A stretch of DNA of 40,111 nucleotides, taken from assembly GCA_902784865.1 (NCBI GenBank), contig CACZWL010000006.1:1-40111 (forward strand), in the 5' to 3' direction. Under the pieces are notes generated by a model. It saw only the letters and a program-made list of their open reading frames with translations. It searched no databases and was not told the origin of the DNA. The DNA is from an uncultured Bacteroidota bacterium. GTDB taxonomy: Bacteria; Bacteroidota; Bacteroidia; Bacteroidales; P3. The position numbers and the translations under genes are program-made. Of this stretch, positions 7,500 to 39,591 are shown one piece after another (position 1 is the first letter of the stretch; each line of letters starts with the position of its first letter).

Positions 7500-7527
7500 G
7501 GAGAGAGGTGAGAGGAGAGAAGAGAGC
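7500..7527. repeat. Heptamer array, 4 units (GGAGAGA / GGTGAGA)
   Basis: Four consecutive 7-bp units of the form GG(A/T)GAGA begin 10 bp after the rhomboid stop codon. The related unit AGGTGAG recurs upstream of folC at 12028-12055. Confidence 0.75.
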
Positions 7528-7531
7528 GGCC

Positions 7532-7596
7532 AATTCGAGTAATTCGCTGTAAATCTGGCCTGCGCAAGCAATTCGCATAATTCGTACAATTCGCCG
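7532..7596. repeat. Nonamer array AATTCGnnn, blocks of 2 and 3 units
   Basis: AATTCG occurs at 7532, 7541, 7570, 7579 and 7588. Spacing is exactly 9 bp within each block; a 20-bp unrelated stretch separates the two blocks. Confidence 0.8.
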
Positions 7597-7686
7597 TTAA
7601 GAGAAGGCGCGGTCTACGTCTCGGAGAGACGCTACAACGCCTCATCTTTAGCACCTCTCCGAGACGCGGGCGCGCCTTCTCCTAAC
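7596..7686. other. Large imperfect palindrome (two-segment stem-loop)
   Basis: The outer arms GTTAAGAGAAGGCGCG (7596-7611) and 7671-7686 pair at 15 of 16 positions. The inner arms CGTCTCGGAGAG (7617-7628) and CTCTCCGAGACG (7655-7666) pair perfectly. Short unpaired segments separate them, and the loop is 26 nt. It has no T-tract, so it is not an ordinary terminator. It lies between the rhomboid gene and the valS promoter, in a gene-free stretch otherwise filled by the two arrays before it. Confidence 0.8.
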
Positions 7687-7761
7687 GCCTCTTTCCCATC
7701 TGTCCTGCAAGCGTTTAGCGTGGGGGAGCAACTTTTTTTCTGATGTTTCGGAAAAAGTGTG

Positions 7762-7771
7762 TATCTTTGCA
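7762..7771 (+). promoter_or_regulatory. Promoter -7 box of valS
   Basis: TATCTTTGCA, preceded by GGAAAAAGTGTG. The same GGAAAAAGT context precedes the CDF-transporter -7 box near 33020. The leader to the ATG at 7797 is about 20 nt. Confidence 0.75.
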
Positions 7772-7796
7772 CCTTTAATTATTATTGTTTTCAACA

Positions 7797-10505
7797 ATGG
7801 AAATCGCTTCAAAATACGACCCTCGCGCCATCGAGGAGAAATGGTACCAGTTCTGGATCGACAAAAAACTCTTCCATTCGGAGCCCGACAACCGGGTGCC
7901 CTACACGGTGGTCATCCCGCCGCCCAACGTCACCGGTGTGCTCCACATGGGCCACATGCTGAACAACACCATCCAGGATGTCCTCGTCCGTCGCGCCCGC
8001 ATGCAGGGCAAGAACGCCTGCTGGGTGCCGGGCACCGACCACGCCTCCATCGCCACCGAGGCCAAGGTGGTGAAGATGCTGGCCGAGCAGGGCATCGACA
8101 AGCGCTCCCTCTCGCGCGACGAGTTCATGAAGCACGCCTGGCAGTGGAAAGAGGAACATGGCGGCATCATCCTGAAGCAGCTGCGCCGACTGGGCGCCTC
8201 GTGCGACTGGGACCGCACCGCCTTCACCATGGACGACGTGCGCTACGAAAGCGTCATACGCGTCTTCGTGGACCTCTACAACAAGGGTCTCATCTACCGC
8301 GGTGTGCGCATGGTGAACTGGGACCCCCAGGCCCTCACCGCCGTCAGCGACGAGGAGGTCATCTACAAGGAAAGCCACGGCAAACTGTTCTACCTGCGCT
8401 ATTACATTGAAGGCGAGGACCGTTACATCGTGGTGGCCACCACGCGCCCCGAGACCATCATGGGCGACACCGCCGTGTGCGTCCACCCCGAGGACGAGCG
8501 CTACCAGTGGCTTCGCGGCAAGAAAATCGTCGTCCCCGGCGTGGGTCGCGCTGTGCCCGTCATCATGGACGAATACGTCGACCGCGAGTTCGGCACCGGC
8601 GCCCTGAAGATTACCCCCGCCCACGACATCAACGACTACAACCTCGGCATGAAATACGGCCTCGAGTCGATAGATATTTTCAACGACAACGGCACGCTGA
8701 ACGACCACGGCGGCAAGTATGCCGGCATGGACCGCTTCGCCTGCCGCAAGCAGATCGTCAAGGACCTCGAGGCCGCCGGCCTCATCGAGAAGATCGAGGA
8801 CTACACCAACAAGGTGGGCCGCTCGGAGCGCACCGACGCGGTCATAGAGCCCAAGCTCTCGGCCCAGTGGTTCCTCAAGATGGAGGGCATCGCCAAGCGC
8901 GCCCTCGAGGTGGTGGAGGACGACACCGTGCGCTTCCACCCCGCCAAGTTCAAGAACACCTACCGCCACTGGCTGGAGAACATCAAGGACTGGTGCATCA
9001 GCCGCCAGCTGTGGTGGGGCCAGCGCATACCGGCCTGGTATTTCGAGCAGAATGGCAAGGTGGAGACCATCGTGGCCCTCGACGAGGAGGCAGCCCGCAA
9101 GGTGGCCGCCGAGAAGTATGGCTACACCGGCGCCCTGCGCCAGGACGAGGACGTGCTGGACACCTGGTTCAGCTCATGGCTCTGGCCCATCTCGCTCTTC
9201 GACGGCATACGCAACCCCGGCAACCCTGAAATCAACTACTACTACCCCACCTCCGACCTCATCACCGGCCCCGACATCATCTTCTTCTGGGTGGCCCGCA
9301 TGATCATGGCCGGCGAGGAATACATGCACGACGTGCCTTTCCGCAACGTCTACTTCACCGGCATCGTGCGCGACAAACTGGGCCGCAAGATGAGCAAATC
9401 GCTCGGCAACAGCCCCGACCCCATCGAGCTCATCGACCGCTACGGCGCCGACGGCGTCCGCATGGGCATGCTCCTCACCGCCCCGGCGGGCAACGACCTG
9501 CCCTTCGACGAGGCCATCTGCGAGCAGGGCCGCAATTTCTCCAACAAGTTGTGGAACGCCCTGCGCCTGGTCAGCGGCTGGCAGATCGCCGGGGAATCCG
9601 GAAATCCAGGAGAGTCAGGAAATTCCACAACCAACGCCACCGCCGTCCAGTGGATGGAGCAGCGCATGGCCCAGGTGCTGGAAGAAATTGAGAAAGACTT
9701 CGACCAGTACCGCCTCAGCGAGGCCCTCATGGCCGCCTACAAGCTGGCGTGGGACGACTTCTGCTCGTGGTACCTCGAGATGGTCAAGCCCGCCTTCGGA
9801 CAGCCCATCGACCGCGAGACCTACGACGCCACCATCTCCATCTTCAGCCGCCTGATGCTCATCCTGCATCCCTTCATGCCATTCGTCACCGAAGAAATCT
9901 GGCACCAATTGGAAATTGAAAAATTAAAATTGAAAATTGAAAGCAAGAGCGACACCGTTAACCCTGAACAAATTTCATTTTTCAATTCTCAATTTTCAAT
10001 TATGAACCAGCACATGCCCACCAGCGTCTACTACGACCAGCGGCTGCTCGACGAGTTCGACACCGCCCGCGAGGTCATCGCCGGCGTACGCAACCTGCGC
10101 AACACCCGCGGCCTCTCGCCCAAGGAGATGCTGGACGTCAGCTACATAGCCAAAGACGACCGCTTCCGCGTGGGCCGCTTCGAGGGCATCATCCGCAAGC
10201 TCGGCAACATCGGCAAGATAGCGCCCGTCAGCGAAGCACCCGCAGGCGCCCTGCAGTTCATGGTCGGCACCGCCGAGTGCTACGTGCCCATGAGCCAGAA
10301 CGTCAACAAAGAAGAAGAACTCAAGAAGCTGCAGGAAGACCTCAAATACTACGAAGGGTTCCTCCGCAGCGTGATGGGCAAGCTCTCCAACGAGAAATTC
10401 GTCAGCGGCGCCCCCGCCGCCGTGGTGGAGAAAGAGCGCAACAAGCAGCGCGACGCCGAGAGCAAGATAGCCGCCCTCAAAGCCCAAATCGAAGCCCTCG
10501 GCTAA
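7797..10505 (+). CDS. valS: Valyl-tRNA synthetase
   Basis: A 902-residue class I aminoacyl-tRNA synthetase that charges tRNA-Val. The signature motifs are [13 protein letters not shown] (HMGH at 50-53) and KMSKS (531-535), and the C-terminal coiled coil ([29 protein letters not shown]) is typical of ValRS. The ATG at 7797 was chosen over a TTG at 7785. Two stretches look like insertions relative to the family: residues 599-610 ([12 protein letters not shown], written by four 9-bp repeats) and about 704-736, between EIWHQL and the conserved HMPTSVYYD-type continuation. The second is written by opposing heptamer arrays. Both lie in the anticodon-binding half, outside catalytic motifs. Confidence 0.97.
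9591..9626 (+). repeat. In-frame nonamer array in valS, 4 units
   Basis: Four 9-bp units of the form GG(G/A)(G/A)A(A/G)TCn, for example GGAGAGTCA and GGAAATTCC, exactly in codon phase, so each unit adds one tripeptide ([12 protein letters not shown]). The same GGAGA(G/A)TCA and GGAAATTCC units recur in frdA at 29950-29976. Confidence 0.85.
9908..10000 (+). repeat. Opposed heptamer arrays in valS (ATTGAAA x5, TTTCAAT x4)
   Basis: Five 7-bp units close to ATTGAAA (9908-9942) are followed after 30 bp by four units close to TTTCAAT (9973-10000), the reverse complement. The two arrays could pair as a long AT-rich hairpin in the mRNA. They encode the probable insertion at residues 704-736. The same heptamer appears in nqrB (22742-22769) and at the gltX 3' end (39564-39591). 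Confidence 0.85.
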
Positions 10506-10534
10506 CGGCCCACCCCCCTGCCACCAACCCCAAT

Positions 10535-10570
10535 CCCCGACAGCCATGCCGCTGCCGGGGATTTTCTTTT
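10535..10570 (+). terminator. Intrinsic terminator of valS
   Basis: CCCCGACAG (10535-10543) pairs with CTGCCGGGG (10552-10560) with one mismatch, followed by ATTTTCTTTT. It lies 30 bp after the valS stop. Confidence 0.75.
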
Positions 10571-10612
10571 CCCCTCCGCCGCCCCCCTCCCCACCCCATC
10601 AGCAGCCCAATA

Positions 10613-10690
10613 CCTGCCATACACCTACCAAGTAAAAACCTAAGCAAAACCTATAGCATACTATACACTGATAATCAACCAATTAAAAAC
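10613..10690 (+). repeat. Dispersed ~75-bp element, copy 1
   Basis: Contains CTACCAAGTAAAAACCT, GCAAAACCTATA, ACACTGATAATCAACC in fixed order and spacing. Near-identical copies are at 28463-28540 (plus) and 32690-32768 (minus), and a diverged copy at 19357-19431 (plus). It is AT-rich and lies between the convergent valS and folC genes. Confidence 0.85.
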
Positions 10691-10715
10691 GGCCTTTTTC
10701 AGGCCGTTTTCGGGT
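10686..10715. terminator. Bidirectional terminator between valS and folC
   Basis: AAAACGGCCT (10686-10695) and AGGCCGTTTT (10701-10710) form a perfect 10-bp stem with a 5-nt loop. T-runs follow on both strands. The element lies between two convergent genes and begins within the last bases of the dispersed element. Confidence 0.75.
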
Positions 10716-10766
10716 TTTTGCGCAAAAAAATCACAGCTTTTTCAGTCGGACGTTAGCGACTGATTG

Positions 10767-12023
10767 TCAGGAGAGTGCGTCGGCAATGAGGAAAATCGAG
10801 CCGGTGACCAGCACCAGGTCGTCGGGTGCCGCCGTGCGGCGTGCCTCGGCGATGGCCTCCTTCACGTTGGCGAAGGCCTCGCCCCCGATGCCCAGCTCGC
10901 GGGCAGCCCCCTGCAGTTCGCCGACGGGCAGGCCGCGGGGCACACTGGGTTGCGAGAAACGCCAGTCGAAGGGCTTTCCTAATTGGGCAAATTCGGCATG
11001 CAGATGCTGCAGTATCTTGCGGTAGTCCTTGTCGTTGACGCAGCCGTAGACGACGTGCAGGCACCCGTAGTCCATACGTTCGAGGGCATGCATCATGGCG
11101 TCGATGCCGTCGTAGTTGTGGGCCGTCTCGCAGATGGTCAGCGGCTGCTCGCCTATCTTCTCCCAGCGGCCCCGCAGGTGGGTGTTGGTCACCACACGGG
11201 CTAGCCCTCTTTCGAGAGCCGAATTCCGAATTCTGAATTCTGGATAGTTGCCGAGCACCTCCACCGCCTCGAGTACCGTGGCCAGGTTCTTCCGCTGGTA
11301 ATCGCCGGTGAGTTCGGTGGTGTAGTCCTCGATATTGTCCACACGGAAGTGCTTGTCGGCGAAGGTGATGGGCGCATGACGCTCGGCGGCTACGCGCTCG
11401 AACACGGGCGCGGTCTCGGCCTGCGTCTCCCCTATCACCACCGGCACCCCCTCCTTGATGATGCCGGCCTTCTCGCCTGCGATGGTCTCCAGCGTGTGGC
11501 CGAGGAACTGGGTGTGGTCAAGCCCGATGTTGGTGATGACGGAGAGCAGGGGGGTGATGACGTTGGTGCTGTCCAGGCGCCCGCCCATGCCGACCTCGAC
11601 GACGGCGATGTCGACCTTCTCCTTTGCAAAATAGTCGAAAGCCATACCGACAGTCATCTCGAAGAAAGAGAGGCTGAGGTCCGCAAAAAGCTGACGGTTA
11701 TCCTCCACAAAAACAATCACAGCCTGATGCGGAATCATCTCGCCGTTGATGCGTATGCGCTCGCGGAAGTCGACGAGGTGCGGCGAGGTGTAGAGGCCCA
11801 CCCGATAGCCGGCTTCCTGCAGGATGGAGGCCAGGAAGTGGCTGACGGAGCCTTTGCCGTTGGTGCCGGCCACATGGATGCTCTTGAACTTGCGCTCGGG
11901 GTTGCCGAGGGCGTCCATCATGTCGATGGTCGGCTGTATGTCGGCCTTATAGGCAGCAGCGCCGATGCGGTGATACATCGGCAGCTGCGCATACATGAAG
12001 TCTAGTGTCTCTTGGTAGGTCAT
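10767..12023 (-). CDS. folC: Bifunctional folylpolyglutamate synthase / dihydrofolate synthase
   Basis: A 418-residue Mur-ligase-family enzyme that adds glutamate to dihydropteroate and to tetrahydrofolate, in the cytoplasm. It has the ATP-binding loop VAGTNGKGSVSHFL (GTNGKGS at 53-59), the folate/metal segments LYTSPHLVDFRERIRING and VEVGMGGRLDSTNVI, the NIGLDHTQFLGHTLETIAGEKAGIIK motif, and AHNYDG in the C-terminal domain. Length matches FolC. The sequence NYPEFRIRNSALE is written by a heptamer array (11221-11248). It is the last gene of a probable minus-strand operon; the upstream barrel gene ends 61 bp before its ATG, and most of that gap is another heptamer array. Confidence 0.93.
   Translation of the reverse strand: MTYQETLDFMYAQLPMYHRIGAAAYKADIQPTIDMMDALGNPERKFKSIHVAGTNGKGSVSHFLASILQEAGYRVGLYTSPHLVDFRERIRINGEMIPHQAVIVFVEDNRQLFADLSLSFFEMTVGMAFDYFAKEKVDIAVVEVGMGGRLDSTNVITPLLSVITNIGLDHTQFLGHTLETIAGEKAGIIKEGVPVVIGETQAETAPVFERVAAERHAPITFADKHFRVDNIEDYTTELTGDYQRKNLATVLEAVEVLGNYPEFRIRNSALERGLARVVTNTHLRGRWEKIGEQPLTICETAHNYDGIDAMMHALERMDYGCLHVVYGCVNDKDYRKILQHLHAEFAQLGKPFDWRFSQPSVPRGLPVGELQGAARELGIGGEAFANVKEAIAEARRTAAPDDLVLVTGSIFLIADALS
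11221..11248. repeat. Heptamer array GAATTCY inside folC
   Basis: GAATTCC, GAATTCT, GAATTCT and a degenerate GGATAGT follow one another with a 7-bp period. The unit core GAATTC is palindromic. The array encodes part of a loop after LGNYPEF in FolC. Confidence 0.7.
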
Positions 12024-12027
12024 GTCA

Positions 12028-12055
12028 AGGTGAGAGGTGAAAGGTGAGAGGAGGG
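12028..12055. repeat. Heptamer array AGGTGAG upstream of folC, 4 units
   Basis: AGGTGAG, AGGTGAA, AGGTGAG and AGGAGGG, 7-bp period, starting 5 bp upstream of the folC ATG. On the mRNA-sense minus strand the units read CTCACCT or TTCACCT. Similar TTTCACC and ATTCACC units occur at 19305-19318. Confidence 0.8.
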
Positions 12056-12084
12056 ACTTGGCATCCCCCCTTTCAATTGTCTAT

Positions 12085-13818: not shown

Positions 13819-13848
13819 AAACATGCTGATATATCGTTGTTAGTTCTC

Positions 13849-19303: not shown

Positions 19304-19356
19304 CTTTCACCATTCACCTTAGTAACGCCGGTTTCTGTATAATATTGTATCCAGAC

Positions 19357-21094: not shown

Positions 21095-22488
21095 GCCATA
21101 GTATAAAGATTAAAAAAGGACTAGACATTCCGCTCGGTGGCGACGCCGAGCGGATAGTCGTTGATATGCGTGGCATCGAACGCTACGCCGTAAAGCCGCC
21201 CGACGTCGTCGGTTTCACCCCCCGACTCCTCGTGTCCGAAGGCGACACCGTAAGCGCCGGACAGCCCCTCGTGGCCGACAAGCGCGACCCGCGCCTCACC
21301 CTCCCCGCCCCCGTCAGCGGCACCGTGGCCGCCATCGTCCGCGGCGACAAGCGCCGCCTCATGGAAGTGGTAATCAACTCCGAAGCCTCCATAGCTTCCG
21401 GAAATACCGGAAACTCCGTACTATCCCCCGAATCTCCCTGTTGGTGGATGCTCCGCGAGCGCCCCTTCGGCACCATCGCCAACCCCAACCACACGCCCAA
21501 GGGCATCTTCGTCTCCATGCTCGACACCAACCCCCTGGCGCCTGACATGGACTTCGCCCTCCGCGGCCGCGAGCAGGAGTTCGAGGCAGGCCTGCAGGCC
21601 CTCGCCGCTCTGGCACCCCTGCACCTCGCCATGCCCCGCGGGTCGAAACACCACTTCCACGCGCCCAACCTCACGGTACACACCGTCGAAGGACCCCACC
21701 CCGCCGGCAATGTCGGCACACAGATTGCCGCCATCAGCCCCATCAACAAGGGCGAATGCGTCTGGACCGTCGGCGCACAGGACGTGGCCAACATCGGCCG
21801 CTGGACCCTCACCGGGCAATACCGCCCCGAGCGCGTCATCACCGTCGCCGGTCCCGCCGCCAAGGCACCCAAATACTACCGCCTCACCGTCGGCGCCTGC
21901 CTGCAGCACATCACCGACGCCCAACTGATGAACCCTGGTTATCCTAGTATATCTAGTTCAACTAGTACAACTAGCCTTACTAGTTCAACTAGAATCATCA
22001 GCGGCTCTCCCCTCAGCGGCACCACCGTCGCCCCCGACGGATTCCTCGGCATGTACGACCACCAGGTCACACTCCTCACCGAAGGCGACCAGTACGAATT
22101 CATGGGATGGCTCATGCCCGGCATCTCCAAGTTCAGCTTCAGCAAGACCTTCGCCAGCGGTATCCTCAACCCCTTCATGAAGATGCTGCCCCTCGACTTC
22201 CTCGGGCTGCCCAAGCCCACCTACAAATTCAACACCAACCTCCACGGCTCCGTCCGTCCCTTCCTCTTCTCCGGCCAGTTCGAGCAGGTATTCCCCTTCG
22301 ACATCTACCCGCAGCAACTCATCAAAGCCTGCATCATAGGCGACATCGAACTCCAGGAACAACTCGGCATCTACGAGGTGGAACCCGAAGACTTCGCCCT
22401 CTGTGAATACATCGACCCCTCGAAGACCGAGATACAGACCATCATCCGCGAGGCCCTCGAGGTCCTCAGAAAGGAGGCTACAGCATGA
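21091..22488 (+). CDS. nqrA: Na+-translocating NADH:quinone reductase subunit A
   Basis: A 465-residue peripheral subunit of Na+-NQR, starting MSHSIKIKKGLDIPLGG, the family N-terminus. VKPPDVVGFTPRLLVSEGDTVSAGQPL, APVSGTVAAIVRGDKR, TVEGPHPAGNVGTQIAAISPINKGECVW and GFLGMYDHQVTLLTEGDQYEFMGW are conserved NqrA blocks. The reading frame is open far upstream, but the ATG at 21091, overlapping the aspA stop, is the only sensible start. Two in-frame nonamer arrays interrupt it: at 21391-21426 (near SGNTGNS) and at 21943-21996, which writes an 18-residue Ser/Thr tract at 285-302, a probable insertion between LMNPGYP and IISGSPL. Confidence 0.95.
   Translation: MSHSIKIKKGLDIPLGGDAERIVVDMRGIERYAVKPPDVVGFTPRLLVSEGDTVSAGQPLVADKRDPRLTLPAPVSGTVAAIVRGDKRRLMEVVINSEASIASGNTGNSVLSPESPCWWMLRERPFGTIANPNHTPKGIFVSMLDTNPLAPDMDFALRGREQEFEAGLQALAALAPLHLAMPRGSKHHFHAPNLTVHTVEGPHPAGNVGTQIAAISPINKGECVWTVGAQDVANIGRWTLTGQYRPERVITVAGPAAKAPKYYRLTVGACLQHITDAQLMNPGYPSISSSTSTTSLTSSTRIISGSPLSGTTVAPDGFLGMYDHQVTLLTEGDQYEFMGWLMPGISKFSFSKTFASGILNPFMKMLPLDFLGLPKPTYKFNTNLHGSVRPFLFSGQFEQVFPFDIYPQQLIKACIIGDIELQEQLGIYEVEPEDFALCEYIDPSKTEIQTIIREALEVLRKEATA
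21391..21426 (+). repeat. In-frame nonamer array in nqrA, 4 units
   Basis: Four 9-bp units in codon phase, each ending in CC: GGAAATACC and GGAAACTCC are the central two. They encode IAS-GNT-GNS-VLS. The unit is related to those in valS and frdA. Confidence 0.7.
21943..21996 (+). repeat. In-frame nonamer array nCTAGTnnA in nqrA, 6 units
   Basis: Six 9-bp units, each with CTAG at the same place, such as TCTAGTTCA and ACTAGTACA, in codon phase. They encode six x-S-x or T-S-x tripeptides (residues 285-302). Six CTAG tetramers in 54 bp is remarkable, because CTAG is usually scarce in bacterial genomes. Confidence 0.9.
22468..22477 (+). promoter_or_regulatory. Strong Shine-Dalgarno of nqrB
   Basis: AGAAAGGAGG, 7 nt before the nqrB ATG. 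Strong Shine-Dalgarno sequences are uncommon in Bacteroidota; near-identical ones precede nqrC (23652-23661) and nqrD (24262-24271). Confidence 0.75.
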
Positions 22489-23675
22489 TGAACACGAAAT
22501 GGCTCGAACAATGGTTCGAGAAGATAGAACCCAAAGGCAAGCTCTCGTGGCTCGGCAGCACCTACGAAGCCTTCCACACCTTCGCCTTCACCCCCAAGAC
22601 CGTCACCCGCACCGGCTCGCACATACGCGACGCCGTCGACATGAAGCGCAGCATCATCATGGTCATCATCGCCCTGGTGCCCGCACTGCTCTTCGGAATG
22701 TGGAACATCGGCAACCAGACCTATAACGCCGACCCCGCCAATTTCAATTTTCAATTTTCAGTTTTCAGCTGCTTCTGGTTCGGCTTCCTGCGCATGCTGC
22801 CCATGATAGCCGTCAGCTACATCGTGGGCTTGGCCATCGAGTTCGCCTTCGCGCAGTACCGCCACCACGAGGTCAACGAAGGCTTCCTCGCCACCGGCCT
22901 GCTTATACCCATGATAGTGCCCGTCACCACCCCGCTGTGGCAGCTGGCGCTGGCCGTGGCATTCGCCGTCATCATCGGCAAGGAAGTCTTCGGCGGTAGC
23001 GGCATGAACTTCCTCAACCCCGCCCTCGTGGCGCGCGCCTTCCTCTTCTTCGCCTACCCGACGCACATGAGCGGAGACAAGGTGTGGATTGCCAACGACC
23101 TGTGGGGCAGCGACGCCATCGCGGGCGCCACCCCGATGGGCGAGCTGGCCGCCGGCATGCATCCCTCGGCTTCGGCCCTCGACATGCTCATCGGCACCAT
23201 CCCCGGTTCCACCTGCGAGACCTCCGTCATCGCCATCGCCCTCGGCGCCCTGCTGCTGCTCTTCACGGGCATCGCCTCCTGGCGCATCATGCTCAGCGTC
23301 TTCCTCGGCGGCGGCCTCATGGGTCTGCTCTTCAACGCCATCGGCGGCAGCGCCTACCTCGACCTGCCCTTCTACTACCACTTCCTCATGGGCGGCTTCG
23401 CCTTCGGCGCCGTCTTCATGGCCACCGACCCCGTCACCGCCGCACAGACCAACTGCGGCAAATGGATCTACGGACTCCTCATCGGCGCCTTCGCCGTGCT
23501 GCTGCGCGTCTGCAACCCCGCCTACCCCGAGGGCATGATGCTCAGCATCCTCTTCATGAACTGCATGGCTCCGCTCATAGACCATTGTGTGGTAGCCAGA
23601 AATATCAAATCTAGACAATCTAGATTATCTAGAATATCTAGCGATTCCAGCAGAAAGGAGGCTCACAATGGCTAA
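22485..23675 (+). CDS. nqrB: Na+-translocating NADH:quinone reductase subunit B
   Basis: A 396-residue membrane subunit with about ten helices that carries covalent FMN and riboflavin and takes part in Na+ and quinone handling. The FMN-attachment motif is DAIAGATPMG with Thr216 (usual form SGAT). Other NqrB blocks: FTPKTVTRTGSHIRDAVDMKR, GKEVFGGSGMNFLNPALVARAFLFFAYP, MATDPVTAAQT and MLSILFMNCMAPLIDH. The ATG overlaps the nqrA TGA. Two arrays affect it: heptamers at 22742-22769 encode FNFQFSVFS in the loop after the first helix, and nonamers at 23607-23651 extend the C-terminus with Arg/Ser tripeptides. Confidence 0.95.
   Translation: MMNTKWLEQWFEKIEPKGKLSWLGSTYEAFHTFAFTPKTVTRTGSHIRDAVDMKRSIIMVIIALVPALLFGMWNIGNQTYNADPANFNFQFSVFSCFWFGFLRMLPMIAVSYIVGLAIEFAFAQYRHHEVNEGFLATGLLIPMIVPVTTPLWQLALAVAFAVIIGKEVFGGSGMNFLNPALVARAFLFFAYPTHMSGDKVWIANDLWGSDAIAGATPMGELAAGMHPSASALDMLIGTIPGSTCETSVIAIALGALLLLFTGIASWRIMLSVFLGGGLMGLLFNAIGGSAYLDLPFYYHFLMGGFAFGAVFMATDPVTAAQTNCGKWIYGLLIGAFAVLLRVCNPAYPEGMMLSILFMNCMAPLIDHCVVARNIKSRQSRLSRISSDSSRKEAHNG
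22742..22769 (+). repeat. Heptamer array TTTCAAT in nqrB, 4 units
   Basis: TTTCAAT, TTTCAAT, TTTCAGT, TTTCAGC with a 7-bp period. Same unit as the right arm in valS (9973-10000) and the reverse complement of the gltX units. Confidence 0.8.
23607..23651 (+). repeat. In-frame nonamer array nnATCTAGA at the nqrB 3' end, 5 units
   Basis: Units such as CAATCTAGA and TTATCTAGA in codon phase, encoding KSR, QSR, LSR, ISS, DSS. The palindrome TCTAGA recurs. The array ends just before the nqrC Shine-Dalgarno. Confidence 0.88.
23652..23661 (+). promoter_or_regulatory. Strong Shine-Dalgarno of nqrC
   Basis: AGAAAGGAGG, 6 nt before the nqrC ATG; identical to the one before nqrB. Confidence 0.75.
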
Positions 23676-24282
23676 AAAGAATTTCTCCAACAGCTACATC
23701 TTCATCTACTCCGCCGTGCTCGTCGTCGTGGCCGCCCTCATCCTCACCGTGGTGGCCGTCAGCCTCAAGCCCGCGCAGGAAAAGAACCAGCGCGCCGAGA
23801 GCAAGCAGATGATACTGAAGACCATCGGCGTCGACGCCACCCGCGACAACGCCGACCAGCTCTACGCACAGCACATCACCGAAGCCGACGGCTACTACAC
23901 CTTCGCCGACGGCATCATCATCCCCCTGCGTGGCACCGGCCTTTGGGGCCCCATCTGGGGATACCTGGCCTTGGACAATAGCAGCACCGTCGTCGGCGCA
24001 GTCTTCGACCACAAAGGCGAGACCCCCGGCCTCGGCGGCGAAATATCGTCCGACAAGTTCGCCCAGCGCTTCATCGGCAAGAAGATGGACACCCAAGCCA
24101 TCTACCTGAAAAAGAACGCCGACAAGGGCAACCCCTACGAGGTTGACGCCATCAGCGGCGGCACCATGACCAGCAACGGCGTCACCGCCATGTTGGAAAA
24201 AGCCTACAACGACTATCAAAATCTGAATACTCAGAATACTCCGAGTACTCCGATTAATCAGAGAGAGGAGGACGAACAATGA
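23668..24282 (+). CDS. nqrC: Na+-translocating NADH:quinone reductase subunit C
   Basis: A 204-residue subunit with one N-terminal membrane anchor (YIFIYSAVLVVVAALILTVV, residues 10-29) and a periplasmic domain that carries covalent FMN. The attachment motif is DAISGGTMTSNGV with Thr166 as the phosphoester site. Also conserved are PLRGTGLWGPIWGYLAL and VFDHKGETPGLGGEI. The ATG overlaps the nqrB end by 8 bp behind a strong Shine-Dalgarno. The last 20 residues (LNTQNTPSTPIN then REEDEQ) are written largely by a nonamer array and look like an added tail. Confidence 0.95.
   Translation: MAKKNFSNSYIFIYSAVLVVVAALILTVVAVSLKPAQEKNQRAESKQMILKTIGVDATRDNADQLYAQHITEADGYYTFADGIIIPLRGTGLWGPIWGYLALDNSSTVVGAVFDHKGETPGLGGEISSDKFAQRFIGKKMDTQAIYLKKNADKGNPYEVDAISGGTMTSNGVTAMLEKAYNDYQNLNTQNTPSTPINQREEDEQ
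24223..24258 (+). repeat. In-frame nonamer array CnGAnTACT at the nqrC 3' end, 4 units
   Basis: Units CTGAATACT, CAGAATACT and two variants, in codon phase, encoding LNT, QNT, PST, PIN. Followed directly by the nqrD Shine-Dalgarno. Confidence 0.85.
24262..24271 (+). promoter_or_regulatory. Strong Shine-Dalgarno of nqrD
   Basis: AGAGAGGAGG, 7 nt before the nqrD ATG. Confidence 0.7.
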
Positions 24283-24896
24283 AAAACACCGACCTTATCA
24301 AACTCCCGTTCAGCAAGAACAACCCCATCCTGGTGCAGGTGCTGGGCGTCTGCTCCTGCCTGGCAGTGACGGCCCAGCTCAAGCCCGCCGTCGTCATGGC
24401 CATATCGGTCACCGTCGTGGTGGTGCTGGCCAACCTCATCATCTCGCTACTGAGAAACACCATCCCGCCGCGCATCCGCATCATCGTGCAGCTCGTCGTC
24501 GTCTCCACCCTCGTGGTGCTCGTCGACCAGGTGCTGAAAGCCTTCATGTACGACGTCAGCAAGCAACTCTCCGTCTTCGTGGGCCTCATCATCACCAACT
24601 GCATCGTCATGGGCCGCCTCGAGGCCTTCGCCATGGTGCAGAAACCCTGGCCCTCGCTCCTCGACGGCATCGGCAACGGATTGGGCTACAGCGTCATCCT
24701 TATCGCCCTCGGCTTCGTCCGCGAGCTCTTCGGCAGCGGCACCCTCTGGGGCTACCCCGTGGTGGAGAAGCTCGGCCTCTACGAGATGGGCTACGAGAAC
24801 AACGGCCTGATGATCATGCCCCCCATGGCGCTGATACTCACCGGCCTCATCATCTGGTGGCACCGCTCACGAAACAAAGATTTGGTTGAACAATAA
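24279..24896 (+). CDS. nqrD: Na+-translocating NADH:quinone reductase subunit D
   Basis: A 205-residue integral membrane protein with about six helices, homologous to NqrE and to RnfE. Conserved blocks are NPILVQVLGVCSCLAVTAQLKPA, FVGLIITNCIVMGRLEAFAM and GLGYSVILIALGFVRELFGSGTLWG. The CLAVT and NCIVMGR segments hold the cysteines that in the NqrD/E pair coordinate an intramembrane iron centre. The ATG overlaps the nqrC TGA (ATGA). The 48 bp after its stop consist almost wholly of a nonamer array. Confidence 0.95.
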   Translation: MKNTDLIKLPFSKNNPILVQVLGVCSCLAVTAQLKPAVVMAISVTVVVVLANLIISLLRNTIPPRIRIIVQLVVVSTLVVLVDQVLKAFMYDVSKQLSVFVGLIITNCIVMGRLEAFAMVQKPWPSLLDGIGNGLGYSVILIALGFVRELFGSGTLWGYPVVEKLGLYEMGYENNGLMIMPPMALILTGLIIWWHRSRNKDLVEQ

Positions 24897-24897
24897 A

Positions 24898-24942
24898 CCT
24901 ATAAGACCTATAAGCCTTATAAGTCCTATAAGACCTACAGAA
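24898..24942 (+). repeat. Nonamer array CCTATAAGn filling the nqrD-nqrE gap, 5 units
   Basis: Units such as CCTATAAGA and CTTATAAGT with an exact 9-bp period, starting one base after the nqrD stop and ending 2 bp before the nqrE ATG. Core TATA/TTATAA is palindromic. Confidence 0.9.
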
Positions 24943-28664: not shown

Positions 28665-29423
28665 CTAGTTGTTACGGTCACGACCGAACAACTGACCGAG
28701 CCACTGGCGGTTCAGCCGCGCGATGTTCTGGCGCTTGATCTGCTTGGGGCACTCGGCCTCGCAGGCGTAGGTGTTGGTGCACGAGCCGAAGCCAAGTTCG
28801 TCCATCTTGCAGACCATCTTGTAGACGCGGTCCTGCGCCTCCGGCTTGCCTTGGGGCAGGAGGGCCAGGTGGCTCACCTTGGCGCCGACGAAGAGCATGG
28901 CGCTGGCGTTCTTGCAGGCGGCCACGCAGGCACCGCAGCCGATGCAGGCGGCGGCATCCATGGCCTGGTCGGCCTTGTGCTTGGGGACGAGGATATTGTT
29001 GGCGTCGGGCACGCCGCCGGTGGTGGCGCTGATATAGCCGCCGGCCTGGATAATCTTGTCGAAGGCGGTGCGGTCCACCACCAGGTCACGGATGATTGGG
29101 AAGGCCTTGGCGCGCCAGGGCTCGATCCATATCTCGTCGCCGTCGTGGAAGTGGCGCATGTGGAGCTGGCAGGTGGTGATGCCGTCGTCGTTGCCGTGGG
29201 GACGGCCGTTGATGTAGAGGCCGCACATGCCGCAGATGCCCTCGCGGCAGTCGTTGTCGAAGCACACCGGGTGCGCTATCTTGTCGCCCACCAGCTTCTC
29301 GTTCAGCTGGTCGAGCATCTCAAGGAACGAGCACTCGTCCGAGATGTTGTCTATCTCGTAGGTCTCGAATTTGCCTTTGGCGCGGGCGTTCTCCTGGCGC
29401 CAGATATGTAATGTAAACTTCAT
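28665..29423 (-). CDS. frdB: Fumarate reductase / succinate dehydrogenase iron-sulfur subunit
   Basis: A 252-residue electron-transfer subunit. 2Fe-2S ligands are Cys59, Cys64, Cys67 (CREGICGMC) and Cys85. The C-terminal ferredoxin domain has [11 protein letters not shown] (Cys160, 163, 166, 170) and Cys215, Cys221, Cys225 ([11 protein letters not shown]), supplying the 4Fe-4S and 3Fe-4S centres. It passes electrons from the FrdC quinol site to FrdA on the cytoplasmic side. It is the last gene of frdCAB. The 91-bp gap to frdA is filled by two opposed octamer arrays. Confidence 0.95.
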
Positions 29424-29431
29424 CTCTTTAA

Positions 29432-29514
29432 TGTGTTATCGTGTTATTGCGTTAGTGTGTTAGTGTTTGTCGCGTCAGCTACTCACGCATTTACACATTA
29501 ACGCGTTCACACCA
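29432..29514. repeat. Two opposed octamer arrays between frdA and frdB
   Basis: 29432-29463: four 8-bp units of the form (T/C)G(T/C)GTTA(T/G). 29483-29514: four units such as TTACACAT and TAACGCGT. The second array is roughly the reverse complement of the first, so the frdA-frdB intercistronic RNA can fold on itself. Confidence 0.8.
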
Positions 29515-31494
29515 TTATTTATAGTTTCGTTTCACAATCTGTATGTGCTCGTAGTTGAGCTCCTCTTTGTGCATCACTTCGGGGCGGTCGTGGCCTTGGT
29601 ACTCCCAAGCGGCAACGAACATGAAGCGCTCGTCGTCGCGCTGGGTCTCGCCGTCCTCGGTCTGGTGCTCGATGCGGAAGTGGCCGCCGCAGCTCTCTTC
29701 GCGCTGCGTGGCGTCGGCCACGATGAGGCGTGCCAGCTCGAAGTAATCCTCCAGGCGGTAGGCCTTCTCCAGCTCGGGGTTCATCTCGGCGGCGCGGCCG
29801 GGGATGAAGACGTGCTGGTAGAAGTCGGCCTCGAGTTCCTCGATTTTCTGCTTGGCGGTGGCCAGGCTCTCCTTCGAGCGGGCCATGCCGCAGTACTCCC
29901 ACATCACGCGGCCCAAGGCCTTGTGGTAGTGGTCGACCGTGTGATGCTCGGAATTTCCTGATTCTCCGGTCTTTCCAGCGATAGCCATGAGGCCGTCGAG
30001 GCGGGCGCGGACGTTCTGCTCGGCCTCGTCGAACTCGGGGCCTTCGGCCTTGATCTTGCCCACGTATATCTGGTCGGCCAGATAGTTTTGAAGGGTGTAG
30101 GGCAGCACGAAGTATCCGTCGGCCAAGCCCTGCATGAGGGCGCTGGCGCCGAGGCGGTTGGCACCGTGGTCGCTGAAATTGGCCTCGCCGGCGGCGAAGA
30201 GGCCGGGCACCGTGGTCTGCAGCTCGTAGTCCACCCAGAGGCCACCCATCGTGTAGTGGATGGCGGGGTAGATCATCATCGGCACCTGGTAGGGATCCTG
30301 ATCGGTGATTTTCTGGTACATCTGGAAGAGGTTGCCATACTTCTGCTCCACCACATCGCGACCGAGGCGGCGGATGGCGTCGGCAAAGTCAAGGTAGACG
30401 GCCAGGCCTGTAGAGCCCACGCCGAAGCCTGCGTCGCAGCGCTCTTTGGCGGCGCGGCTGGCCACGTCGCGAGGCACAAGGTTGCCGAAGGCGGGGTAGC
30501 GGCGCTCGAGGTAGTAGTCGCGGTCTTCCTCGGCGATGTCGAGAGGGCCTTTCTCGCCGCGGCGTATGGCCTCGGAGTCCTCTTTCTTCTTGGGCACCCA
30601 GATGCGGCCGTCGTTGCGGAGGCTCTCGCTCATGAGGGTGAGCTTCGACTGGTAGTCGCCGTGGACGGGGATGCAGGTGGGGTGTATCTGCACGTAGCAG
30701 GGGTTGGCGAAGGCGGCGCCGCGGCGATGGCATACCCAGGCGGCGGAGCCGTTGCTGTTCATGGCGTTGGTGGAGAGGTAGTAGATGTTGCCGTAGCCGC
30801 CGGTGCAGAGGACGACGGCGTGGGCGGCATAGCGCTCCAGCTCGCCTGTGACGAGGTTGCGGGCGATGATGCCGCGTGCGCGGGGCTTGCCGTCTTTGTC
30901 GGGGACAACGACGAGGTCCATCATCTCATGGCGTTCGTGCAGGACGACGGTGCCGCGTGCTATCTCGCGGCTCAAGGCGCCGTAGGCACCGAGGAGCAGC
31001 TGCTGGCCGGTCTGGCCGCGGGCGTAGAAGGTGCGGCTGACCTGTGCGCCGCCGAAGGAGCGGTTGTCGAGCAGGCCGCTGTAGTCGCGTGCGAAGGGCA
31101 CACCCTGTGCCACGCACTGGTCTATGATGTCGCCGCTGACCTCGGCCAGGCGGTAGACGTTGGCTTCGCGGGCGCGGTAGTCGCCACCCTTGATGGTATC
31201 TTTGAAGAGGCGCTCCACGCTGTCGCCGTCGTTCTGATAGTTCTTGGCGGCGTTGATGCCGCCCTGGGCGGCGATGGAGTGGGCGCGACGGGGCGAGTCG
31301 CTGATGCAGAAGATGTCGACATGGAAGCCCAGGGCGCCGAGCGAGGCGGCGGCCGAAGCGCCGGCCAGGCCGGTGCCGACGACGATGATGTCGAGCTTGC
31401 GCTTGTTGGCGGGGTTGACCAGCTTCTGGCTGGCCTTGTAGTTGGTCCACTTCTGGCTGAGCGGGCCTTCGGGTATCTTGGAATCGAGATTCAT
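29515..31494 (-). CDS. frdA: Fumarate reductase / succinate dehydrogenase flavoprotein subunit
   Basis: A 659-residue catalytic subunit that reduces fumarate to succinate (or the reverse). The dinucleotide fold [12 protein letters not shown] is at 38-49, and [17 protein letters not shown] (67-83) contains His72, the expected covalent FAD site. [16 protein letters not shown] and [17 protein letters not shown] are further family blocks; length fits the ~650-residue Bacteroidota/epsilon-type FrdA. Residues 507-515 (GKT-GES-GNS) are encoded by three in-frame 9-bp repeats within a helical-domain loop. Its ATG is directly preceded by an octamer array that forms nearly the whole frdC-frdA gap. Direction in vivo is inferred as fumarate reduction from the aspA-nqr neighbours. 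Confidence 0.96.
29950..29976 (-). repeat. In-frame nonamer array in frdA, 3 units
   Basis: On the coding strand: GGAAAGACC, GGAGAATCA, then GGAAATTCC, in codon phase, encoding GKT, GES, GNS. The last two units match those in valS almost exactly. Confidence 0.82.
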
Positions 31495-31526
31495 TGCGTT
31501 AATGCGTTAATGTGTTAATGCGTAAG
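31495..31526. repeat. Octamer array TGCGTTAA between frdC and frdA, 4 units
   Basis: TGCGTTAA twice, then TGTGTTAA and TGCGTAAG, exact 8-bp period, directly abutting the frdA ATG. The same octamer family fills the frdA-frdB gap. Confidence 0.88.
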
Positions 31527-32559: not shown

Positions 32560-32592
32560 CGTTTCCGTTGCATTTTTATCGGAAAATCCGTA

Positions 32593-32622: not shown

Positions 32623-32689
32623 CCCTAAACCAAGCGCACAAAAACGCGAGATTTTCCGTCCGAAAACCGAAAAAAGGGTCAAAATCACA

Positions 32690-32768
32690 AGTTTGCAATA
32701 GGCTGATTTACAGTGTGTAGCAAGTTATAGGTTTTGCTTAGGTTTTTACTTGGTAGGTCTATGGTAGG
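32690..32768 (-). repeat. Dispersed ~75-bp element, copy 3
   Basis: On the minus strand it carries CATAGACCTACCAAGTAAAA, CCTAAGCAAAACCTATAAC, ACACTGTAAATCAGCC and TATTGCAAAC, near-identical to copy 2. It sits in the divergent region between frdC and the CDF gene. The following stretch 32769-32982 holds no gene I can support. Confidence 0.88.
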
Positions 32769-32982
32769 AGCAGGCCTGGCGACGGGGGTGCGGCGAGGCG
32801 GTAGCGGAGCGCCGGCGGGTCGAATTATCTTTGTCATTGCTTCCGCGCGCATCGCTTCAGGGCATTTGATTTCAGTTAGCGACAGATGTGTGCATGCAGA
32901 CATGCTGGAAAACACCCGAATATTGAACACACAGTATCAGCACCTTACGAATAACTTTCACTTGATATGCACTAAAATACAC

Positions 32983-32998
32983 TCACCATCAATGGTGA
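32983..32998. promoter_or_regulatory. Candidate operator: 7-bp inverted repeat upstream of the CDF promoter
   Basis: TCACCAT-CA-ATGGTGA is a perfect inverted repeat 24 bp upstream of the CDF -7 box, where a regulator could control the promoter. Assignment to a metal-responsive factor is inference from the downstream gene. Confidence 0.4.
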
Positions 32999-33022
32999 CA
33001 CTCCCATGTCGGAAAAAGTTCG

Positions 33023-33032
33023 TACTTTTGCA
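33023..33032 (+). promoter_or_regulatory. Promoter -7 box of the CDF transporter gene
   Basis: TACTTTTGCA (TAnnTTTG), preceded by GGAAAAAGTTCG as at the valS promoter. The leader to the ATG is about 15-20 nt. Confidence 0.7.
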
Positions 33033-33053
33033 AACTGAAAAACGACAACAATT

Positions 33054-34708: not shown

Positions 34709-34833
34709 CGGGTATACTGCTTTCAGTTACAATGTGATAACGCGCAAAAAGAGTCTTTATTGTGCGGCGGTGTTTTTTTTTGAAAAGATGGGGCGCTTTT
34801 TTTATTTATCGCGCTACATTTAAGAATATTTTG

Positions 34834-34843
34834 TATATTTGCA
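34834..34843 (+). promoter_or_regulatory. Promoter -7 box of the DPP IV operon
   Basis: TATATTTGCA in an AT-rich stretch, 32 bp upstream of the ATG at 34876. No clear -33 TTTG is seen. Confidence 0.7.
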
Positions 34844-34875
34844 TTTTTGATACAATATAAAAAGGACTACAAAAA

Positions 34876-37239: not shown

Positions 37240-37245
37240 AACATT

Positions 37246-38004
37246 ATGAAGAAGATAGTAATACTGGGTTTAATGGGCCTGATGTGGCTGACAGGCAGCC
37301 GCGTGCAGGCGCAGTCGTTCACCTACGGCGTGCGGGCCGGACTGGGCCTTGCCACCATGAAAGACGACCTCAGCACCAAGTCGCCCCTGCTGGGAGTGAA
37401 CGTGGGCGGCTATGTGAGCTACCACTTCACCGAGACCGAGAGCATGCTGGCCGAGCTGTTCTACCTGCAAACGGGACTGAACCTGACGCGCCGTGGCTGC
37501 GACTACCGCAACGTGTTCGAGAAATCGACCGACCTGAGCATCCAGACGGGCTACTACCACGCCTGGTACCTTCAGCTGCCGCTGCTGGTGGGCTTCCGCT
37601 ACGAACTGCCCGTGCGCCAGGCCGGCCATGTGCTGGGCGTCTTTGCTGGCCCCGCCGTGAGCTACGGCCTCTTCGGCTCCTACGGCGAGCGCATGGTTCA
37701 CCCAGGCTCGCCCGACCGCAATACGAACTACGACATAGCCATCGACGGCACGAAAGCCGACCAGCGCGTCTTCAACCACCTGAACCGCTTCGACCTCAGC
37801 GCCATCGTCGGCATCTCGTACGAACGAGAAAAATTCACCTTCTCGTTCCATATCGACTACGGCTTCCTGGCCACATCGGAGAGCGACGACATACTGCGCA
37901 TCATCGAAGGCAGCGCCGAAGGCAACCCAGTGTTCGCACAAATACCCAACGGCCACAACACAGCCTACATGTTCTCGGTAGCCTACCAACTGGGAAAATT
38001 CTGA
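37246..38004 (+). CDS. PorT-family outer-membrane beta-barrel protein
   Basis: A 252-residue exported protein with signal peptide MKKIVILGLMGLMWLTGSRVQA. The mature part begins SFTYGVRAGLGLATMKDD and shows about eight amphipathic strands, including NVGGYVSYHFTETESMLAELFYLQTGLNL, YLQLPLLVGFRYEL and VLGVFAGPAVSYGLFG, ending FSVAYQLGKF with a terminal Phe as in outer-membrane barrels. This is the pattern of Bacteroidota PorT/OMP_b-brl_2 proteins. PorT proper acts in type IX secretion, but most paralogues have no assigned function, so no symbol is given. It is sandwiched between DPP IV (6 bp) and gltX (27 bp). Confidence 0.75.
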   Translation: MKKIVILGLMGLMWLTGSRVQAQSFTYGVRAGLGLATMKDDLSTKSPLLGVNVGGYVSYHFTETESMLAELFYLQTGLNLTRRGCDYRNVFEKSTDLSIQTGYYHAWYLQLPLLVGFRYELPVRQAGHVLGVFAGPAVSYGLFGSYGERMVHPGSPDRNTNYDIAIDGTKADQRVFNHLNRFDLSAIVGISYEREKFTFSFHIDYGFLATSESDDILRIIEGSAEGNPVFAQIPNGHNTAYMFSVAYQLGKF

Positions 38005-38031
38005 TTTAGACAAGAGACAACACGACAAGCA

Positions 38032-39582
38032 ATGAACGTAAGAGTAAGATTCGCCCCCTCGCCCACGGGGCCGCTACACATCGGCGGCGTGCGCACCGCC
38101 CTCTACAACTACCTCTTCGCGCGCCAGAACGGCGGCAAGATGATACTGCGCATCGAGGACACCGACCAGACACGCTTCGTGCCCGGTGCAGAACAATACA
38201 TCATCGAGGCCCTCGACTGGCTGGGCATAGAGTTTGACGAAGGCGTGCATATCGGCGGTCCCTACGGCCCCTACCGCCAGAGCGACCGCAAGCCCATGTA
38301 CCGCCAGTATGCCGACCAGCTGATACGCGACGGCTGGGCCTACTACGCCTTCGACCGCCCCGAAGCCCTCGACGCCAAACGCAAAGAGTACGAAGCGCAG
38401 AAGAAAACCTTCCAGTACGACTGCACTACCCGCGGCAGCATGGAGAACAGCATCAGCCTCGGCATGGAAGAGGCGCAGCGCCGCATAGACGCCGGCGTGC
38501 CCTATGTGGTGCGTTTCATGTTCCCCGACAATATAGACATAACGGTGCACGACCTGATACGCGGCGACGTGACGATGAACAGCCGCCTGCTCGACGACAA
38601 AGTGCTATTCAAGTCCGACGGCATGCCCACCTACCACCTCGCCAACATCGTGGACGACCACACCATGGAGATCACCCACGTCATACGCGGCGAAGAGTGG
38701 CTGCCGTCAGCCCCGCTGCACGTGATGCTCTACAAAGCCTTCGGATGGCAAGCGCCCATGTTCGCCCACCTGCCCCTGCTGCTCAAACCCGAAGGCAACG
38801 GCAAACTCAGCAAACGCGACGGCGACCGCCTCGGCTTCCCCGTCTTCCCCCTCGAATGGCACGACCCCAAAAGCGGCGAAGTCAGCAGCGGCTACCGCGA
38901 GCAGGGCTACCTTCCGCAGGCCGTGGTCAACATGCTGGCCCTGCTGGGATGGAACCCGGGTAAACGGGAAGGCGACAACGGAGCCAACCCCGTTTTCCAG
39001 GAACTGATGACCATGGACGAACTCATCAAGCTCTTCGACATCAGCCACATCAGCAAGAACGGAGCCAAATTCAACCTGGACAAAGCCAAATGGTTCCAGC
39101 ACGAATACTTCCAGCAGCTGAGCGACGACACCGTGGCCGACATGCTGGACAAACAAGTGAAAGCCCGCGGCATCGAGGCACCCCGCGAATACGTGGCCAA
39201 AGTCGCCTCCATGATGAAAGAACGCATCACCTTCCCCAGCGAACTGTGGGACACCTGCTGCTACTTCTTCCAGGCACCCACCGAATACAACGAAAAAGAC
39301 GTAGCCAAACGCTGGCAGCCCGGCATGGAAAACCACATGGCCAAAGTCATCGAAATACTGCAGACCGTACCCTTCGAGCACGACGCCATCCACCAAGCCC
39401 TGCTCGAAGACTACATCAAAGCCAACCAGCTCAACACCGGCGCCATCATGAACTCCCTCCGCCTCGCCGTCGTCGGACGCACCGTCGGCCCCGACATGAT
39501 CACCCTCGTCCTCACCCTCGGCAAAAAAGAAACCATCAGCCGCGTACAGCGCGCCATCGAAAAATTGAAAACCGAAAATTGA
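38032..39582 (+). CDS. gltX: Glutamyl-tRNA synthetase
   Basis: A 516-residue class I aminoacyl-tRNA synthetase that charges tRNA-Glu. Start [30 protein letters not shown] contains the HIGH-type motif HIGG (16-19); KLSKR is at 258-262. The anticodon-binding alpha-helical domain extends to the end. Length is at the upper side of the family, as usual for Bacteroidota. The final residues IEKLKTEN and the stop codon are embedded in an ATTGAAA heptamer array. The OmpH-like gene starts 15 bp after the stop. Whether it is discriminating or non-discriminating cannot be told from the window. Confidence 0.96.
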
Positions 39583-39591
39583 AAATAGAAA
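39564..39591 (+). repeat. Heptamer array ATTGAAA across the gltX stop codon, 4 units
   Basis: ATTGAAA, ACCGAAA, ATTGAAA, ATAGAAA with a 7-bp period; the gltX TGA lies within the third unit. Same unit as the left arm in valS. Confidence 0.85.

Follow-up and report, generated by a model that had tools for sequence, protein, structure and literature searches.

Short tandem-word arrays share slots, registers, and words in the genes and gaps of an uncultured Bacteroidales genome and its relatives

This study analyzed short tandem repeat arrays in a 40,111-nucleotide stretch of DNA from an uncultured Bacteroidota bacterium (bases 1-40111 of contig 6; hereafter, the window), the source genome of which comprises 2,404,232 bases in 43 contigs. 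Arrays of a few degenerate 7-, 8-, or 9-bp units (words) exceeded their frequency in shuffled sequence, occupied the same slots in related species with different words in one register, and shared words within a genome; their inverted pairs had a fixed polarity. We give about an even chance to the explanation that short-patch gene conversion or template switching copies words from one array to another. The closest named records found by searching were, for the most part, assemblies from the rumen and from the guts of other herbivores, with the label Bacteroidales or Bacteroidetes, and one named relative, Candidatus Colimorpha, was farther off.

A strict array was defined as a segment with at least 17 of 20 matches at a given lag. 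First-order Markov shuffles, which preserve local dinucleotides but not codons, served as controls (50 per lag for the window and five for a 440-kb sample of the same genome). The window contained 5, 1, and 4 strict arrays at lags 7, 8, and 9, and each set of 50 shuffles contained none; the 440-kb sample yielded 37, 4, and 13 arrays against shuffle means of 0.0, 0.2, and 0.0. The excess at these lags claimed by the original prediction was thus borne out in both scans. Lags 5, 13, and 17 yielded no strict arrays in the 440 kb and lag 10 yielded two, whereas 18 were found at lag 11, 8 at lag 12, and 23, 12, and 10 at lags 14, 18, and 21. The counts at lags 12 and 21 suggest that part of the lag-9 signal is likely coding periodicity. 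Of the three lags, 9 is the least secure because the shuffles lack codon structure; 7 and 8 are not multiples of the codon length. A relaxed scan of the window returned 27 rows (9, 2, and 16 at lags 7, 8, and 9) and none at lags 10 and 13. Sixteen of these rows had a guanine-plus-cytosine (GC) content below 0.6; the others, mostly lag-9 rows within genes, were GC-rich and resembled ordinary coding periodicity, so that the earlier figure of more than twenty loci was too high and should be nearer sixteen.

The proposal of a single uniform class for the three lags was not supported. Mean array GC was 0.32 at lag 7, 0.34 at lag 8, and 0.49 at lag 9, compared with 0.58 in the sample; the arrays were therefore AT-rich, as predicted, at lags 7 and 8 and less so at lag 9. 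Among 50 lag-7 arrays in the 440-kb sample, in which genes were called by a codon-score script, 27 were inside genes, 8 at gene edges, and 15 between genes. The corresponding numbers were 2, 1, and 4 at lag 8, whereas 15 of 17 lag-9 arrays were inside genes (1 at an edge and 1 between), several of them ordinary coding sequence. The predicted prevalence of palindromic cores did not survive: a raw count of 38 of 98 against 14.6 had counted orthologous loci repeatedly, and on distinct words the enrichment was gone, with 11 of 41 at lag 9 (7.2 expected), 6 of 54 at lag 7 (4.1 expected), and 0 of 15 at lag 8.

The arrays were concentrated in the near and mid-distance relatives. The genome contained 63 exact copies of the word AATTGAAAATTGAAA and none of the reversed control sequence; copies ranged from 0 to 152 in 24 same-genus genomes and were absent from 16 other-family genomes except for 1, 6, and 1 (reversed controls, 0 to 5). 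At lags 7, 8, and 9, 36 near loci (516 kb) contained 55, 16, and 42 arrays, many of the lag-9 rows being one conserved coding stretch of nqrE, and 31 mid-distance loci (465 kb) contained 45, 17, and 12. The numbers were 0, 1, and 1 in 13 far loci (173 kb) and 1, 1, and 2 in 15 other families (255 kb). In the sampling of other families, two stretches were picked near known heptamer matches, and one locus (L161) was entirely N, so that the other-family figure rests on 15 genomes.

Orthologous protein sites in the relatives carried different words, and their sequences are therefore not explained by conserved residues. At the nqrB site, 23 of 37 rows had a 24-nt stretch of the TGADWHWL type; (TTTCAAT)n was found in the window, L034, and L035, TTTCCAC-type words in L046 and L047, a palindrome in L036 and L045, and an inverted 8-mer pair in L040. 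The nqrA site carried CTAG-type 9-mers or 7-mers of the form CACTNNN, in which NNN was species-dependent. In the nqrD-nqrE gap, L086 shared the word ATAAGACCT with the window, and other relatives had other words or an overlap. The nqrE-nqrF gap was 11 bp at its shortest and over 200 bp at its longest, and its inserts were unrelated; at L062:12342-12548 it was filled by an exceptionally long 8-mer array of the GGAGATAA type, approximately 200 bp. Palindromes of the form CCCCTCTCC..GGAGAGGGG were observed at L035:6936-7005, L102:6948-7015, L119, and L125, two of them within nqrA at a site where other species have word arrays.

The murD gene independently repeats this pattern of different words at one slot. 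We compared 30 loci, on both strands, from the 53 genomes with a match, and defined an array allele by a best lag-7 segment of at least 11 of 14. Such alleles occurred in 9, 8, 12, and 13 of the 30 relatives at the four slots, all among the 15 nearest genomes. Their length was 48 nt in 9 of 9 at slot 1, 48 nt in 7 of 8 at slot 2, and 45 nt in 11 of 12 at slot 3, and 48, 42, and 39 nt in 8, 4, and 1 at slot 4; one slot 2 allele (L209) ran in the opposite direction. Different words kept register: the mean rank was 0.095 (random, 0.5), and the shared register ranked strictly first in 36 of 56 pairs; for hand-picked alleles at five slots, it was best or next-best in 43 of 46. A periodic-difference test was discarded as evidence of register because it is partly circular, two period-7 arrays necessarily differing with period 7. 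At slot 4 of L203, a GGGATGCC-ACT-GGCATCCC palindrome broke up a TTTCCAC array.

Words were also shared within single genomes. Array pairs of the source genome at least 400 bp apart were considered to match with at most one mismatch and were compared with letter-shuffled controls; lag-9 words with at least six G+C were excluded here and from the palindrome and within/between-genome tests. Matches were found in 137 of 703 pairs at lag 7 (shuffled mean 24.1, maximum 46), 6 of 21 at lag 8 (0.6 and 3), and 10 of 55 at lag 9 (0.3 and 3). This sharing does not depend on orthology; with orthologous loci included, the values were 0.168, 0.266, and 0.059 against approximately 0.037, 0.014, and 0.002. 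The earlier argument that units shared at unlinked loci speak against simple independent slippage is supported by these results, which are far above chance. Same-genome pairs also matched more often than other pairs in permutations that took no account of phylogeny: 183 of 911 against 1086 of 9820 at lag 7 (reached by 3 of 500 permutations), 16 of 100 against 116 of 2601 at lag 9 (1 of 500), and 65 of 420 against 44 of 4236 at lag 11 (0 of 500). The lag-7 and lag-9 effects persisted when genome G000 was removed (2 and 18 of 500).

The murD slots agreed with this result. Across slots, the within-genome word distance was 1.94 compared with 2.26 when permuted (P 0.004), and hand-picked words agreed within genomes at P 0.0002. 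TTTCCAC, counted with overlapping matches, occurred 158 times in G071, 48 in G024, 2 in G000, and 1 in G002, and all three murD array alleles of G071 were of the TTTCCAC type. The reversed control of this word is itself a word of the set, TTTCACC, with 13 matches in G071, 1 in G000, 50 in G002, and 136 in G051. The sister genomes G075 and G076, 92% identical in their nqr loci, differed sharply: 120 kb of each contained 21 and 2 lag-7 arrays, respectively. At lag 9, G076 had 9 rows (approximately four of which look like words, three of the TTAAGGTCT type) against 2 in G075, and one lag-7 and one lag-8 array were identical in both. Paired GAGCCGTTTCATGAAACGGCTC palindromes were observed in L131 at 1921-1995 and 2655-2735. 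The counterpart of the first in sister G076 was a 9-mer array, and G076 had one GAGCCGTTTCATGAAACGGCTC palindrome where G075 carries an AATTGAA array.

Sharing across loci, in-register word change, and one-way polarity do not follow from slippage alone, and copying between arrays on either strand would account for the word sharing and the register. The few-copy arrays of a 7-, 8-, or 9-bp word are dispersed singly or as the two inverted arms of a hairpin, in permissive slots, namely intergenic gaps and the variable parts or ends of proteins. In the mechanism that we infer, they would first arrive there by slippage or insertion and would then be copied into or over one another, on either strand, by putative enzymes performing short-patch, gene-conversion-like template switching. 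A word would thereby displace those of other arrays in its genome with register, and often length, preserved, and each species would drift toward its own favoured words. We assume no benefit; the arrays would arise as a by-product of mutation and persist where the protein tolerates them. The model for the copying step, short-patch illegitimate recombination, belongs to general background, and a literature search on it found nothing.

Several results weigh against copying as the explanation. Three near relatives had non-array murD alleles of 42 nt at slot 1 (arrays, 48), and three had non-array alleles of 36 nt at slot 3 (arrays, 45). Because non-array lengths vary, only slot 2 and part of slot 3 show clearly that native sequence was overwritten at equal length, and such replacement holds at some slots only. 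Lag 8 exhibited no within-versus-between-genome effect (12 of 40 against 283 of 1235; reached by 120 of 500 permutations), nor did exact matches at lag 9 (4 of 100 against 55 of 2601; 82 of 500), and the permutation P values are too small because phylogeny was ignored. G002 and G051 agree with word dominance in part only: the murD words of G002 were TTTCACC, CTCCACT, CATTCAT, and TCAACAC, whereas its commonest counted word was TTTCAAT (152), and G051, for all its TTTCACC matches, had TTTCAAT-, ACCCACT-, and TTTCCAC-type murD words. An 86-bp hairpin at L047:11069 was cleanly missing from L053, which is a plain insertion, and the TCCGGANNA units at L047:9718 were a difference of the plain insertion or copy-number type. 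Copying by itself does not explain the polarity of inverted pairs. No copying event with an identifiable donor and recipient was found; among the pairs compared for arrays, the closest was 94.7% identical in BLAST blocks, so that we infer the direction of copying. No enzyme was indicated, since RVT_1 and Y1 genes were missing from some array-rich genomes. A bolder form of the copying explanation, possible but on balance unlikely, is a genome-wide molecular drive in one bacterial genus, in which dedicated putative machinery would spread a 7-9 bp vocabulary over micro-arrays that number in the hundreds and lie on both strands, so that a word spreading through one genome would rewrite many proteins (such as MurD and ValRS) at once.

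An alternative that we consider rather doubtful as it stands is a mobile hairpin resembling repetitive extragenic palindromic (REP) sequences, Rickettsia palindromic elements (RPEs), or miniature inverted-repeat transposable elements. Its arms would be tandem repeats and its tip GC-rich, and it would insert whole, also into genes, and leave solo arrays as one-arm remnants. Fixed polarity speaks for it: of 120 genomes, 29 contained the pattern ATTGAAAATTGA-N12..42-TCAATTTTCAAT (AATTGAA..TTTCAATT), with 81 forward matches that in part overlap within one element, and the opposite polarity had none in the 120. Among 21 neighbouring lag-7 pairs, 15 were inverted, 1 direct, 1 ambiguous, and 4 unrelated, and the G-richer arm came first in 14 of the 15. 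The tip, GCTG[ACT]CGC (GCTGNCGC) or GGCTACGC, recurred with different words and, in tests of 130 lag-7 arrays, lay on the inner side in 11 sense and 6 antisense tests, against 1 and 2 on the outer side (control approximately 1% per test; the motif was picked after examples had been viewed). The clean absence from L053 of the L047:11069 hairpin also favours insertion, as do the five lag-7 arrays found within the 3.3-kb locus of each of the two G002 Y1 genes examined. Insertion does not, however, give a register, and at several slots a length, retained across species with different words; no ends or tip were common to all inverted pairs, and GCTGACGCG alone was not enriched (29 against a permuted mean of 16.6 and maximum of 55). 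Copying and a mobile hairpin may act together.

The search for machinery bears on the same alternative. Lag-7 arrays occurred in only 4 of 30 Y1 loci scanned, two of them the G002 loci, and none lay immediately at the gene; one of the two Y1 genes of G000 was among the 30 and had no lag-7 array. Y1 genes were missing from some genomes that carry the word, including G008 (95% complete), which had 19 matches, and Y1 transposase is a possible but not a supported driver. Reverse transcriptase was rejected as the machinery, RVT_1 matching in only 9 of 25 genomes and in none of G000, G001, and G002. The G002 clusters lay at L178:329-1028 and L193:3102-3332, approximately 0.5-1.6 kb from the Y1 genes. 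Two similar hairpins of approximately 105 bp at L178:1297-1401 and 2158-2263, with CTGGGGTTACTGA near their start, flanked a Y1 transposase gene; this gene and its two hairpins are perhaps a separate mobile element. Other palindromes occurred near Y1 genes, and the gene was misread in the minus-strand loci of that scan.

Independent replication slippage at many sites, even with a strong bias toward certain motifs and with selection that favours tolerated peptides, is improbable. Copy-number differences do exist, as in the TCCGGA units of L047 and L053 and in the long L062 array; within-genome sharing at approximately 6 to 30 times the letter-shuffled mean, genome-specific words, a register common to species, and the one-way polarity of inverted pairs nevertheless oppose it. 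Context-specific mutation or anti-motif selection, for example restriction avoidance, could alter all units of a word simultaneously without copying; we regard it as very improbable, since it should affect varied positions and letters, whereas the arrays stay internally uniform with the new word. An artefact, whether from faulty assembly or binning or from ordinary coding periodicity, is scarcely credible: the closest named records are uncultured or metagenome-assembled, several lag-9 rows are conserved coding sequence (for example, TGGCCATCG in nqrE), and lag 12 also gave arrays, yet 7 and 8 are not multiples of the codon length, frames stay open through in-gene arrays, and assemblies from different studies agree.

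The arrays occupy gaps and the variable parts of NqrA, NqrB, ValRS, FolC, HydF, and MurD. In the 440-kb sample, 34 of 345 called genes held an in-gene array, some of which are low-complexity ordinary coding sequence. MurD contained four arrays, a TonB receptor three, and MtaB and ValRS two each. A MurL-like protein (below the cut-off of its model) had three, and single arrays occurred in HydF, a GH3 enzyme, a peptidase S49, a sodium symporter, FolC, and others. Ten array-bearing proteins were searched in Pfam and ten in NCBIfam, seven being common to both, and three had no family in these searches. In HydF, GH3, and MtaB, the arrays lay between Pfam domains; a domain enclosed those of ValRS and of the TonB receptor and, in MurD, two of the four places.

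The features of the window are listed in Table 1. The genes valS, folC, nqrA, gltX, and those of succinate dehydrogenase/fumarate reductase were named by searching; the names nqrB to nqrF come from the original prediction and gene order only. The recurring unit families predicted for valS, nqrA, nqrB, gltX, and both frd gaps were found where expected, including the AATTGAA/TTTCAAT family in valS, nqrB, and the end of gltX, TGCGTTAA-type units common to both frd gaps (29428-29517 and 31491-31525), and AGGTGAG at 7500 and 12027 with a trace of two units near 19305. The frdA member at 29950 was a weak run of three units, GGAATTTCC TGATTCTCC GGTCTTTCC. Compared with the solved NqrA chain 8a1u_A, the nqrA array is inserted sequence. 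Folding of eight stretches as single-stranded DNA gave z from -1.32 to -8.68, with -2.35 for the valS inverted pair and -2.15 for the hairpin-like element, which lies between the iron-sulfur and flavoprotein subunit genes of fumarate reductase/succinate dehydrogenase. Rfam returned no window matches at the gathering score, and 29380-29540 had no phage match.

Table 1. Arrays and related elements in the window
Feature	Position	Strand	Location and remarks
Lag-7 array GGAGAGAGGTGAGAGGAGAGAAGAGAGC	7500..7527		Intergenic, upstream of valS
Lag-9 array CAATTCGCA/TAATTCGTA	7569..7594		Intergenic
Four degenerate 9-mers GGGGAATCC GGAAATCCA GGAGAGTCA GGAAATTCC	9591..9626	+	valS; under scan thresholds
Inverted pair of AATTGAA / TTTCAAT arrays	9907..10001	+	valS, in frame, within Anticodon_1 match
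GAATTCT/GAATTCC lag-7 array	11217..11246	-	folC
AGGTGAG lag-7 array	12027..12053		Gap adjoining folC
CTAGNNNNN lag-9 array	21944..21992	+	nqrA; CTAG words; residues around YPSISSSTSTTSLTSSTR
TTTCAAT lag-7 array	22737..22771	+	nqrB
TCTAGANNN lag-9 array	23607..23643	+	Near nqrB C-terminus; CTAG words
GAATACTCA / GAGTACTCC lag-9 array	24220..24262	+	Near nqrC C-terminus
ATAAGACCT lag-9 array	24893..24937	+	nqrD stop into nqrD-nqrE gap
Hairpin-like element, 8-mer arms TTAATGTG.. / ..CACATTAACGC around GTCGCGTCAGC	29428..29517		
TGCGTTAA lag-8 array	31491..31525		5' end of flavoprotein subunit gene
AATTGAA-type lag-7/14 array	39561..39593	+	Spans gltX stop codon

Tandem arrays of 11 bp, often with tight inverted arms, were observed in L111-L130 and at L054:4830-4907 and L056:139-221. 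Their words were genome-specific (ACCTACCAGAT and GAACAGACGAA in G000), 27 of 28 lay outside genes, and their inverted pairs were mostly C-first (7 against 2); no clear relation to gene orientation was found. These arrays are real, and we treat them, with their different words, as a separate class.

The original prediction that no described system has these properties was too strong, because heptamer repeats (PMC4679880), in-gene palindromes (PMC3733652), and coding tandem repeats (PMC9879509) have been published; this and the following comparisons hold for the available portions of the cited papers. TAACTGA heptamers, found in Beggiatoaceae, Cyanobacteria, and Bacteroidetes, are likewise direct 7-bp repeats spread through genomes, some within open reading frames (ORFs), and some Bacteroidetes intergenic regions hold additional, other heptamers (PMC4679880). 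That system, however, uses a single word, mostly intergenic near start codons, whereas here there are many words, more than half of the lag-7 arrays are in genes, inverted arms occur, and the word at a site depends on the species. The GTAG/CGTC REPs and the RPEs resemble the present arrays in being small palindromic repeats with inverted pairs and with copies in genes of known proteins, and CGTC-type REPs are reported from Bacteroidetes (PMC3733652). REPs are 20-40 bp stem-loops with a tagged foot (GTAG or CGTC) (PMC3733652); here, by contrast, tandem words that vary make up the arms while some tips recur, and many arrays stand without an inverted partner. The tip GCTGNCGC can include GACG/CGTC, and no constant foot or CCA tail was seen by eye, the published REP consensus not having been formally searched. 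In-frame palindromic inserts within genes were represented by the valS inverted pair and by nqrA or nqrB inserts in L031, L040, and L097; a Rickettsia-type assignment depends on this feature and not on a comparison with the published RPE consensus.

Borg tandem repeats share fast turnover and presence in genes and gaps, but virtually all are unique per genome, and their ORF units are divisible by three (PMC9879509). Here, words are shared between loci, and 7- and 8-bp units, not divisible by three, occur in ORFs. Compared with simple sequence repeats, the units are few and degenerate, and three murD slots have near-constant length, with some copy-number change. The G-rich heptamers of Xanthomonas and Nostoc are also abundant genome-wide 7-bp repeats, but they are quadruplex-forming, of one consensus type, and over-represented in noncoding DNA (PMC4692102). 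The coding palindromes of nematomorph mitochondria are likewise inverted repeats within working genes; they are perfect, up to 284 bp long, and have arms encoding conserved residues, and tandem words go unmentioned in the abstract of that report (PMC6649704). The spread of noncoding satellites through prokaryote genomes has been judged rare (PMC6749651). A literature search covering few subscription papers returned no match for a shared vocabulary with register-preserving change and genome-specific dominance in core proteins. Parts of the phenomenon are thus already published, and the combination did not appear in the literature searched.

Concerted evolution is familiar for eukaryotic satellites and ribosomal genes. 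It appears here to act on patches of 20-50 bases scattered through a bacterial genome and its core proteins. If confirmed, these arrays would allow proteins to change in a coordinated way without point mutation as the starting event, and they would offer a natural system for measuring short-patch template switching.

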